Assembly: GCF_947259025.1 (NCBI RefSeq)
Contig: NZ_CAMYKO010000002.1
Location: forward strand, 124,001 to 188,000
DNA: 64,000 nucleotides
Direction: 5' to 3'
Origin: an uncultured Methylophaga sp.
Lineage (GTDB): Bacteria > Pseudomonadota > Gammaproteobacteria > Nitrosococcales > Methylophagaceae
The notes below the pieces were generated by a model, which ran no database searches, had not been told where the DNA came from, and saw only the letters and a list, made by a program, of their open reading frames with translations. Positions 2,675-53,671 of the stretch are shown piece after piece. Positions within the stretch are counted from its first letter, which is position 1, and every line of letters begins with the position of its first letter. Both the position numbers and the translations under genes were made by a program.

Positions 2675-3556
2675 TTAGTTCTCTGAGAAGCGGCACTCGC
2701 CAGTTGAACCCTGAGCACAGATCCGGCCATCCAGCCAGATGGCATTATCCAGTCGTGCGCCACTCAGTTCACTGCCGCCCAGTCGCGCATTACTGAGATC
2801 GGCATAAGCCAGATCGGCATCTCGCAGATCGGCGTAGGACAGATCCGCCTCACTGAGGTTACTGCCAAACAGGCTGGCACCCTGCAGATCGGCATAGCTG
2901 AGATTGGCATAACGCAGATTGGCATATGCCAGATCCGCATTGACCAGCAGTGTGTTCATCATGCTGGCAGCGCCCAACTGACTGTTTCTCAGCCCGGCAC
3001 CACTCAAATCTGTCTGACTCAGATCCGCCTGGGATTTGAGACAGTTATTCCAGTTCACGCCCGGCGCCGCTGGGGCCGCGCAGTTGGGAAGCGGGGTAGG
3101 GATAGTAGTCGGAAACAGCACCGCCATAATTGTGATAAGCACTAACAATACAAAGGTCGATAGCAAGGGCCACATATTGCGTTCATGGCGTTCACGAAAG
3201 CGCTGCATCAACTGCCAGCGCAAAGCCCGTCTGTCCTGCTCGGATGCCGGCTCACCGGCGCGTCTCTCGCCGCGGCGCTGTTTAGCTTCGGGCGGAAGCA
3301 CGCGCTGTTGCTGGCGGCGATCCTGGCCGGTTCGCTCATCCAGGTGTCGCCTGGCTTTGTCATCATCAGCGGTGTCGGGGTGTAAGGTGGTTTGCTCTGC
3401 CAGTGGCAGCCAGTGTTGCTGATCAGCCGATACTTCATCACGCATGCTCAGCCGGCCCACAATCAGGTGATTCATGATCACCGAGCCGTTAAACGGGCCG
3501 GTCACCTCTCCTGCACTTCGTATGTACCACTGTTGATGCTTGTTTGTCATTGCCAT
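2675..3556 (-). CDS. Membrane protein with GYF_2 domain and pentapeptide repeats
   Basis: About 293 residues with three parts. Residues 8-60 resemble the GYF_2 domain (QWYIRSAGEVTGPF, later LIVGRLSMRDEVS and a W-L-P-L end), thought to bind peptides. A basic, highly charged stretch (RRHLDERTGQDRRQQQR and similar) leads to one membrane helix (WPLLSTFVLLVLITIMAVLF). After it come about 20 consecutive pentapeptides of the A[DN]L-x-x type, which should fold as a right-handed square beta helix on the far side of the membrane. The longest reading frame begins at a TTG at 3568; I prefer the ATG at 3556 (or 3550), though no start has a good ribosome binding site. No function can be assigned. It diverges from fliK. 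Confidence 0.8.
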   Translation of the reverse strand: MAMTNKHQQWYIRSAGEVTGPFNGSVIMNHLIVGRLSMRDEVSADQQHWLPLAEQTTLHPDTADDDKARRHLDERTGQDRRQQQRVLPPEAKQRRGERRAGEPASEQDRRALRWQLMQRFRERHERNMWPLLSTFVLLVLITIMAVLFPTTIPTPLPNCAAPAAPGVNWNNCLKSQADLSQTDLSGAGLRNSQLGAASMMNTLLVNADLAYANLRYANLSYADLQGASLFGSNLSEADLSYADLRDADLAYADLSNARLGGSELSGARLDNAIWLDGRICAQGSTGECRFSEN

Positions 3557-36359: not shown

Positions 36360-36401
36360 CAGAATTGATTTACATCAAAACTCTGGACGCTGCCGCGGGG
36401 C

Positions 36402-36836
36402 GTTCATTTATTTTGCATGCCCAAAATAAACGAACCAAACAAAAGGGCAGCCCACAGCTTGCCCTAACGGGTTCCCTGCGCTTCTCAATCAGTTTGGACA
36501 CGACGAAAACTCGCTACGCTCAGACACTCGTCGTGTTTGATCCAAACTGATTTGCGATGCTCGGCTGCGCTGAAGGGCGGGCAGTGTTTGGTTCGTGGCA
36601 TCCCTGCCACTCACCCTTCGGGCGCCGCAGGCCAGCACAGAGGGGAGTTTGTGAGCCCCTTTTCCCGTTATAGTGCCGCCAAAAATTAAACCGGGTTGAT
36701 GGGAGAAGTGGTCGAGTGTGTGAGCGCAGCGAGTTTTCGGCCACGCCATCAACCCGGTTTAATTTTTGGAAATAAGGCAATATCGGGTGCCTTTTTGTTT
36801 GGTTCCGTTTATTTTGGGCAAACAAAATAAATGAAC
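36402..36836. repeat. 435-bp element with 48-bp terminal inverted repeats and nested palindromes
   Basis: The left end (36402-36449, GTTCATTTATTTTG...) and right end (36788-36836) are near-perfect inverted repeats of about 48 bp, differing at only a few positions. Inside are a perfect 22-bp inverted repeat (36681-36702 against 36746-36767, core AACCCGGTTTAATTTTT), and an imperfect one of about 20 bp (36487-36506 against 36529-36552) with a 5-base bulge. The smaller palindrome of 36708-36745 has GTGGTCGA against TCGGCCAC. Thus one strand could fold as a long stem bearing several arms. No transposase lies inside or nearby, and the longest reading frames on both strands (87-101 codons) span the palindromes and look non-coding. 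Base composition differs from the neighbours. It could be a MITE-like mobile repeat or a structured-RNA element. Together with 36313-36401 and 36837-36893 this fills the 580-bp gap between ppc and the PqiA-like gene. Confidence 0.85.
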
Positions 36837-36893
36837 TCGCCTTTCAGGCGAAATAAAACGCTATGAAAAATAGAGGTTCACTGAAGGTGAAAC

Positions 36894-53127: not shown

Positions 53128-53310
53128 ATGTCCCTGCGGTGCTCGACAGCGACACTGTGTGTCTTGAGCCGATAAGCAAATGCTTAGGAAACCAAAATCT
53201 CGGAGTCGAAAAACAAGCCCGCTACGACGGGAAGTTTGCCGGCTTCATGCGGTTTCCCTCTTGGACCCGATGGTTCAAGAACCCCCGTCGCATCGACACT
53301 GTGGGGCTAC
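53128..53310 (+). ncRNA. ssrS: 6S RNA
   Basis: About 183 bases directly after zapA, the usual place of ssrS. The ends pair: 5' CCCTGCGGTG (from 53132) with 3' CACTGTGGGG (ending 53306) using G-U pairs. The 5' inner strand carries TTGAGCCGATAAGC at 53164 as in E. coli CTGAGCCGATA, and the 3' side has the small hairpin TTGGACC-CGA-TGGTTCAA at 53261-53278 that corresponds to TTGAACC-AAG-GGTTCAA. These give the closed stem, central bulge and terminal-loop design that binds RNA polymerase holoenzyme. Exact ends are estimated. The usual downstream gene ygfA is not present here. Confidence 0.88.
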
Positions 53311-53671
53311 TTTTCCCCTTTATCCTCATTCACTGTGAAAGCAGTCATTGCTGCATGGTGAAGAGGCTATCGTCTTTCTTCGCAGAGCTATCCATTTGAG
53401 TGCGATGGGCACCATTACCTCACTCGGTTATCAACAGTAGCTGGCCGTTCTCCCGACTTTCTCACCAAAAGCCATAATACTCTCCTGAATCCGTCAAGCG
53501 TCAGAGCTAGTTGCAGATAAAGATTATATTTGACATCCCGGTGCTTGTTTTCAGCCTGTTTCTTTTAAATATGCTTTCCCTAACATATTGATTTAATCAG
53601 GGATTTTGGTTTACTGATAAGCCAAGCTAGCTTTTAAAATCTGAATAGCCTGATTACAGAGAGGTATGTCG
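53311..53671. other. Non-coding gap between 6S RNA and the permease
   Basis: About 360 bases without a convincing gene. Short open frames lie here and across the 6S RNA, but they have no ribosome binding site and non-protein-like composition. A loose promoter-like pair, TTTACT at 53610 and TAAAAT at 53635 with 19-base spacing, may serve the permease. I see no strong terminator for 6S RNA; it is probably trimmed from a longer transcript. Confidence 0.6.

Follow-up and report, generated by a model that had tools for sequence, protein, structure and literature searches.

What is the folded stretch of intergenic DNA that an uncultured Methylophaga sp. carries between ppc and a PqiA-like gene, and does it fold as DNA or as RNA? 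Within the window, a stretch of 64,000 nucleotides (contig NZ_CAMYKO010000002.1, positions 124,001 to 188,000), a first-pass annotation had described a 435-bp element with 48-bp terminal inverted repeats and proposed either a non-autonomous mobile element moved in trans or a long structured RNA. The element had been picked out correctly, while its limits turned out to be wider than 36402-36836: judged by the ends common to other copies, it extends from ~36388 to ~36853 (left hairpin start 36387/36388, right hairpin end 36851-36853) and comprises ~470 bases. As placed before, it lies between the two genes: it follows the ppc stop at a distance of 75 bp, and the PqiA-like gene, which is convergent, has its stop 40 bp beyond the element. 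Its small frames had been called implausible, and the two that were tested gave no NCBIfam or Pfam family match.

The inverted repeats were largely as described. The terminal arms (36397-36444/36794-36841) span 48 nt with 81% complementarity, the inner repeat is perfect and covers 24 instead of 22 nt, and the third, bulged pair is present, its shorter stem being read from the sequence (Table 1). A further pair had been missed (36504-36530/36713-36739, 27 nt, 93%); it represents the apical loop common to both halves together with its closing stem. When the whole window was scanned for inverted repeats with a minimum length of 20 nt and a maximum distance of 500 nt, which gave a list of 14 pairs, the three longest pairs at ≥79% and the sole perfect one all fell into the element. 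That it is more ordered than chance is likewise borne out: folded as DNA, 36388-36856 reaches -134 kcal/mol, which none of 100 shuffles attained (mean -74.9, sd 4.4, z -13.4), and the halves folded singly give z -5.2 and -7.7 (0/200 shuffles each). Elsewhere in the window, a 6S RNA gene is found at 53128-53311 on the plus strand.

The copy consists of a half A (36388-36578) and an inverted half C (36664-36853) with the wreck of a B half in between. Consequently, the picture of a simple terminal inverted repeat is incomplete: the ends do pair, and they do so because both bear the same pseudoknot module.

Table 1. Features of the element copy between ppc and the PqiA-like gene (window positions)
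Feature	Position	Strand	Basis
Whole element	36388-36853		Copies in own genome and relatives; z -13.4
Left end hairpin ACGC..GCGT, CGCTGCCGCGGGGCG type	36387-36403		Same end at C3:66807, C1:67982, C4:480019 and in relatives
Half A pseudoknot stem S2, 36402-36415/36422-36435, loop 36416-36421	36402-36435	-	Covariation, 19 A halves
Half A linker CAAACAAAA, mirror of S2 strand AAAATAAA; proposed third strand of a triplex	36436-36444	-	Mirror analysis
Half A pseudoknot strand GGGCA, pairs with loop TGCCC (36418-36422)	36445-36449	-	Pairing, 19 A halves
Half A P4 (36461-36465/36574-36578) around long hairpin	36461-36578	-	Alignment of A halves
Half A long hairpin, stems 36487-36498/36541-36552 and 36499-36506/36528-36535	36487-36552	-	Covariation
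Half A conserved apical loop; minus strand GTGTCTGAGCGTAGCGAGTTT, GNA mini-hairpin GAGC-GTA-GCGAG	36507-36527	-	Motif comparison
Remnant of a separate ~70-bp mini-element (TTCGTGGCATCC...GGGCGCC)	36592-36626		Site with vs. without: L288 vs. L283
B half remnant GCAGGCCAGCACAGAGGGGAG	36627-36647		By-eye comparison with B halves
Half C P4 strands flanking long hairpin	36664-36787	+	18 C halves
Half C perfect 24-bp hairpin 36679-36702/36746-36769 and inner stem	36679-36769	+	Covariation, 18 C halves
Half C apical GNA mini-hairpin GAGCGCAGCGAG	36722-36733	+	Sequence and motif comparison
Half C pseudoknot TGCC 36788-36791, linker TTTTTGTTTGG 36792-36802	36788-36836	+	Covariation and sequence
Half C S2 36803-36816/36823-36836, loop GGCAAA 36817-36822	36788-36836	+	Covariation and sequence
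Right end hairpin TCGCC-TTTCA-GGCGA, then AA	36837-36853		End type seen in other copies

The element is not confined to this site. Its own genome harbors it at 8 places (30 partial matches), with an identity of up to 97% among A halves. Matches were obtained in 34 of the 58 genomes searched, the own genome included, and nearly all belong to the family: 23/24 genomes of the genus (own included) and 10/11 of the rest of the family, compared to 0/6 in the order's other family and a single weak match in 17 genomes elsewhere in the class. Named records with these family types include Methylophaga species as well as MAGs. The plasmid and phage collections gave no match to the window element, and a half from Variovorax matched just 2 plasmid records. 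Full copies comprise two unlike halves face to face, as A-B, C-B or A-C, and solo halves occur too. In addition, hybrid halves were found in which an A end is joined to a B body, so that modules evidently reassort.

Other repeats are found in and around the copies. In B halves, the apical loop accommodates a folded mini-element of ~70 bp (TTCGTGGCATCC...TTTGTGA); it is flanked by TGA on one side and GCGNAGCGAG on the other, and TGA occurs at each of its ends. In one orthologous pair it is present at one site (L288 in genome G014, 1099-1167) and absent from the other (L283 in G023, 1191); further examples are L273, L278, L281, L286, L289, and L290, and a relative of the mini-element splits the pseudoknot loop of an own-genome copy (L035, ~3050-3130; C2:51.6 kb). 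A hairpin repeat of another kind, CCCTCACCCCAGCCCTCTCCC, is often located in the spacer between halves, as in the own-genome copies at C3, C4:195 kb, C2:51.7 kb, and C1:67.9 kb. Furthermore, REP repeats of the GTAGGTTGGGTTGA type, which belong to a RAYT system, are scattered among copies of the element (L236-L237, L040-L043), and at L042/L043 the element apparently splits them.

The fold of each half comprises three parts, namely an end hairpin, an H-type pseudoknot and a long hairpin that bears one conserved loop, and the paired positions covary. From 39, 33, and 39 full-length hits, 21, 17, and 19 non-redundant A, B, and C halves were obtained; two A/B hybrids, one misassigned B and one misassigned C half were excluded, and the remaining 19 A, 16 B, and 18 C halves were aligned by sequence homology. 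Helices were named from one reference half per kind, and the shuffles used for comparison ignore relatedness. Covariation was found in S2, in the pseudoknot and in the hairpins. In the A pseudoknot all cells of the four core pairs are paired (100% vs. 87% on average in shuffles), double changes occur in 8 cells vs. 2.6, and just one of the four core columns varies on both sides. For B, 95% of cells are paired vs. 83% when shuffled, with 12 double-change cells vs. 4.3, and for C 94% vs. 88%, both partners being changed in 3 pairs vs. 0.3. Counted as pairs with a double change, A (1 vs. 0.98) and B (2 vs. 1.67) do not rise above shuffle level, since few pseudoknot columns vary. The P4 of A equals its shuffles, and as this helix hardly varies, it says little. 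In the long hairpins, double-change cells number 30 vs. 8.6 and 19 vs. 4.5 in the two stems of A, 27 vs. 6.8 in B and 53 vs. 15.5 in C. A pseudoknot finder scored ≥20 in 52/122 real and 4/122 shuffled sequences; it presupposes pairing and was used just for this comparison and for the linker statistics, while the pairing itself rests on covariation.

Mismatches in the long hairpins identify the strand that is structured. The apical loop has the sequence TGAGCGNAGCGAGT on this strand, which corresponds to a GC-GNA-GC mini-hairpin standing on G.A pairs. Both d(GCGNAGC) and GNNA loops are known for their stability in DNA hairpins, and a stability order of mismatches is known as well. With arms aligned on Watson-Crick pairs alone, 89 of 112 non-redundant hairpins were usable (284 had been collected; the rest align poorly). 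The GNA strand showed G.T 81 times vs. A.C 32 times and G.A 115 times vs. C.T 18 times; among same-base mismatches, G.G was counted 30 times vs. 8 for C.C, and A.A 37 vs. 34 for T.T. A G/A internal loop at a distance of 31-40 nt from the apical loop accounts for many of the G.A mismatches. Closer in, up to 30 nt from the apical loop, G.T to A.C is 47:8 and G.A to C.T is 50:8, while beyond 40 nt the asymmetry fades (G.T 17 vs. A.C 15). Such asymmetry would be absent if both strands formed a cruciform; thus one defined strand is structured.

Another regularity concerns the linker between pseudoknot strand and stem, which mirrors one strand of the stem. Within the family, AAAATAAA goes with AAACAAAA, AAAAGAAA with AAAGAAAA, and AAAAAA with AAAAAA; outside of it, AAGAGAAAG goes with CAAAGAGAA and TAGAAAAG with CAAAAGAT. 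Over 60 non-redundant cases the mean mirror identity is 0.754 vs. 0.648 for direct comparison (mirror better in 37, direct in 5), and none of 2000 sets of permuted linkers came as high (mean 0.579, maximum 0.638). One linker, TTTTCTTT with AAACAAAA, breaks the rule. In the G-tract stems of type B and Halopseudomonas, the linkers are G tracts as well and run antiparallel to the G strand, and this type mirrors weakly (0.668 vs. 0.623 direct, 10 cases). A triple helix would need a linker mirrored in this way. On the structured strand, the bases would give T.A-T, C.G-C and, at a T-A step, G.T-A triples, which is the code of the parallel pyrimidine triplex, and we propose on the grounds of these sequences that the linker may serve as its third strand. 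The H-type pseudoknot of telomerase, which has T/U.A-T/U triples, is the nearest likeness: there too, loop 1 runs along stem 2, parallel to the purine strand, with matches to T.A-T, C.G-C, and G.T-A. In contrast to the telomerase pseudoknot, the present one occurs in bacterial repeats and has a G-tract variant.

Does the strand fold as DNA or as RNA? A structured RNA that spread as a repeat, with the GNA strand transcribed and pseudoknot and loop acting as RNA, perhaps by binding a conserved protein, would account for a fold conserved by covariation and for G.T exceeding A.C on one strand, and H-type pseudoknots with major-groove triples are known from RNAs. Since the G.T excess and the covariation would suit an RNA too, we count them against the reading as a mobile DNA element. 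However, other results fit RNA poorly. Rfam gave no match above gathering at the element, nor at the motif in the 18 loci that were searched out of 116 others, and the sub-threshold matches alone were mostly miRNA families on the perfect hairpin. Solo hairpins show hardly any preference for the sense strand: in relation to neighboring genes, 29 lie in sense, 25 in antisense, 31 in convergent and 10 in divergent gaps (95 used out of 203 hairpins, after leaving out 11 duplicates, 62 less than 500 bases apart, 10 in long frames and 25 without neighbor). Four-base loops in the family are GTTA or GCTA in 7 of 10 cases and not GNRA, the triples needed by the G-tract linkers would be of the purine motif, a kind poorly formed by RNA strands, and the two halves sit on opposite strands. 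Based on triplex code, loop variants and the lack of gene-strand bias, in our judgment single-stranded DNA is clearly ahead of RNA as the form of the structured strand, and we regard a spreading structured RNA as unlikely. Of the long structured RNA once suggested, the strong and conserved fold thus stands, while the RNA itself has lost ground.

The apical loop extends far beyond the family. Scanning 257 billion bases of species genomes for AAACTCGCTNCGCTCARACAC gave at least 116 stretches where simple arithmetic expects ~1 by chance. Among the matches listed are Variovorax, Undibacterium, Herminiimonas, Marinobacter, Halopseudomonas, and Thiomicrorhabdus, furthermore Nitrospirota, MAGs of Desulfuromonadales and Desulfobacterales, Clostridium, Lachnospiraceae, Phascolarctobacterium, Fusobacterium gastrosuis, Parabacteroides, and Saprospiraceae. 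Beside the loop, a stem of ≥6 bp is present at 105/129 sites vs. 90/2000 random positions; of 17 named loci re-checked, the Marinobacter pair (L161) and Phascolarctobacterium (L111) are without a 6-bp stem right beside the loop. Counted in 29 carriers, loop matches number 1 to 33 per genome, and those of the reversed pattern 0. Within the window's phylum, 22 of 398 genomes have the loop, all of them in the window's own class and some with more than 25 copies, such as G519 with 36 loop matches (reversed control: 1 match). Its occurrence in the phylum is therefore patchy and class-biased, though remote phyla have the same loop. Viral contigs gave just 2 loop matches, with no stem visible around either. 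Variovorax and Cellulosilyticum (L100) have a long basal stem in place of the pseudoknot, and what stays constant is therefore the hairpin together with its loop. In the family motifs the two stem bases covary (n = 47: GC/GC 41, CC/GG 3, GG/CC 1, AT/AT 1, mismatch 1), in a search that presupposes a G..A loop of 3-4 bases. Outside the family the uniform loop proves nothing, because that set was collected by the loop pattern.

At one Parabacteroides locus (L312, 5094-17181), five loops lie among MNT/HEPN-like and capsule genes in a stretch of 12 kb, all of them on one strand. An integron-like array was considered, and the intervening genes did not support it.

Occupied and bare sites, copy number and patchy occurrence support the view that the element is mobile. 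The PqiA-like ortholog with its ppc side was located in 9 relatives, and the gap between the genes is bare in 5 of them (L071, L074-L077); of the other four, L070 contains a lone C element, L069 and L072 show pieces near a contig end and L073 other foreign DNA. Variovorax J2P1-59 (G074) has two copies with 97% identity over 475 bp and different flanks. At an orthologous site, 515 bp in G074 correspond to 28 bp in G087; a second Variovorax site gives 22 bp vs. 572 bp with an added loss on the right side, and a third turned out to be an internal deletion between two CCGGT copies. None of the sites compared showed a clean, base-exact target duplication, the Variovorax comparisons not being base-exact; at L042, a single case, ACAAGG stands on either side of the element as a possible duplication. 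Many family sites are common to several species, and movement in the family is therefore infrequent. Variovorax J2P1-59 also carries six near-complete copies (L292-L297) with two giant hairpins and a conserved spacer of ~90 bp, and the ends of several of them resemble GTTGGGG..CCCCAAC inverted repeats.

Which of the known systems comes closest? REP/REPIN sequences with their RAYT (TnpA_REP; PMC3733652, PMC6006769) are likewise folded, head-to-head, intergenic repeats with copies throughout the genome and without a gene of their own, and inverted unit pairs occur here as A-B, C-B, and A-C as well as in Variovorax. In contrast to REPs of 20-40 bp, the units of the element measure ~190 nt and have a pseudoknot and a constant GNA loop. 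The tetranucleotides GTAG/GTGG or CGTC of the REP tag occur just inside the element, none of them at the foot of the end hairpin or of the S2 stem. The TIR repeats associated with TIRYT (Di Nocera, 2013; PMC3733652) also form families with long terminal inverted repeats, single or dimeric; unlike these, the element lacks GGGGWSAS (4 matches in the window, 0 in the element), and no tyrosine transposase was seen between or beside copies. With non-autonomous IS200/IS605 derivatives the element would share the principle that the ends are recognized as folded single-stranded DNA. However, IS605 ends are in direct orientation, while those of the element are inverted, alike in fold and equipped with a pseudoknot. 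With MITEs it shares shortness, inverted ends, the lack of coding capacity and sites without the element, yet its ends are unlike in sequence and the same in fold, and neither a parental transposon nor a clean target duplication was found among the copies and sites compared. The attC boxes of integrons, GTTRRRY/RYYYAAC, had no match on either strand of the element. The literature searched by loop sequence, topic and translated loop, a set that leaves out most subscription papers, yielded no description of the element; the one match by loop sequence and the matches by translated loop were unrelated.

Given these likenesses, the element might be a REP/REPIN-like satellite of a Y1 transposase (RAYT or TIRYT) that was since lost from its genome. 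Its inverted, folded intergenic units, seldom found in divergent gaps (10/95), do resemble REPs (PMC3733652). In addition, a Y1 protein is present in 23/28 carriers of other groups, and since PMC6006769 gives Y1 in 42.8% of 1354 species, this speaks for such an origin; among family carriers the share is 21/34. The search for the gene itself points the other way. At E ≤ 0.001, PF01797 was detected neither in the own genome (99.9% complete) nor in 12 further of the 34 family carriers (8 of these 13 are ≥94% complete, the own genome included; G007 keeps a RAYT fragment), and it went undetected in 5/28 carriers elsewhere. The motif was absent around the Y1 gene at all 26 loci inspected (15 in carriers of the family; 2.1-6.5 kb per locus, covering part of the carriers' Y1 genes), and no RAYT stood beside the element. 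Both RAYT genes that were inspected are surrounded by GTAGGTTGGG repeats of a different family, and the element has neither a GTAG-tagged end hairpin nor GGGGWSAS. Hence we consider a Y1 satellite of this kind quite improbable. Other partners did not emerge either: the Y2 transposase PF04986 is absent from the own genome and present in 6/31 carriers, clustering of ORFs from 116 loci and then 40 further stretches gave just repeat-derived frames and common gene types, and no autonomous parent with the same ends was among the copies fetched, which are a part of all copies. That the element is immobile, an old regulatory or chromosome-structuring palindrome duplicated by ordinary recombination and gene conversion, would agree with the swapped modules and the many sites common to species of one clade, yet is highly improbable in view of its patchy distribution (22/398 genomes, some with >25 copies), the bare orthologous sites and the same loop in remote phyla.

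Taken together, the element is a real, family-wide, two-ended structured repeat and, by loop and fold, part of a much wider class. It works like a REPIN-type satellite, yet fails the REP, TIRYT, attC, and Rfam tests. We favor as probable that it is a non-autonomous, REPIN-like interspersed element, defined by structure over sequence and moved in trans as single-stranded DNA. This is close to the first of the two proposals made before: further copies, bare orthologous gaps, reassorted halves and the lack of a recognizable gene of its own all agree with it, and neither a single copy nor unconserved pairing, two of the three outcomes that were named as leaving a chance or decayed repeat, was found.

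One might envision its mobilization as follows. Each end would be a module of ~190 nt that folds in one strand into end hairpin, H-type pseudoknot and long hairpin; the linker would lie along the pseudoknot stem as third strand, and a GNA mini-hairpin loop would cap the long hairpin. Placing two unlike modules face to face may avoid a perfect long palindrome. The structured strand would act as single-stranded DNA, for example when exposed at the replication fork, where an enzyme provided in trans could recognize the folded ends and the constant loop, and recombination would presumably reassort the modules. More tentatively, such elements may form a mobile class found throughout bacteria that is recognized by its single-stranded DNA fold, a triple-helix pseudoknot at each end plus the conserved GNA mini-hairpin, and moved by an enzyme that has so far been connected with no repeat family.

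Hairpins with one and the same 21-nt loop are found in Proteobacteria, Bacillota, Bacteroidota, Fusobacteriota, and Nitrospirota, which implies that the recognizer is widely shared or travels. If the pseudoknot triplex is real, the alignments represent a natural experiment on the base rules of triple helices in DNA. Furthermore, the copies make it testable, with defined substrates, how small bacterial repeats without a transposase of their own spread.
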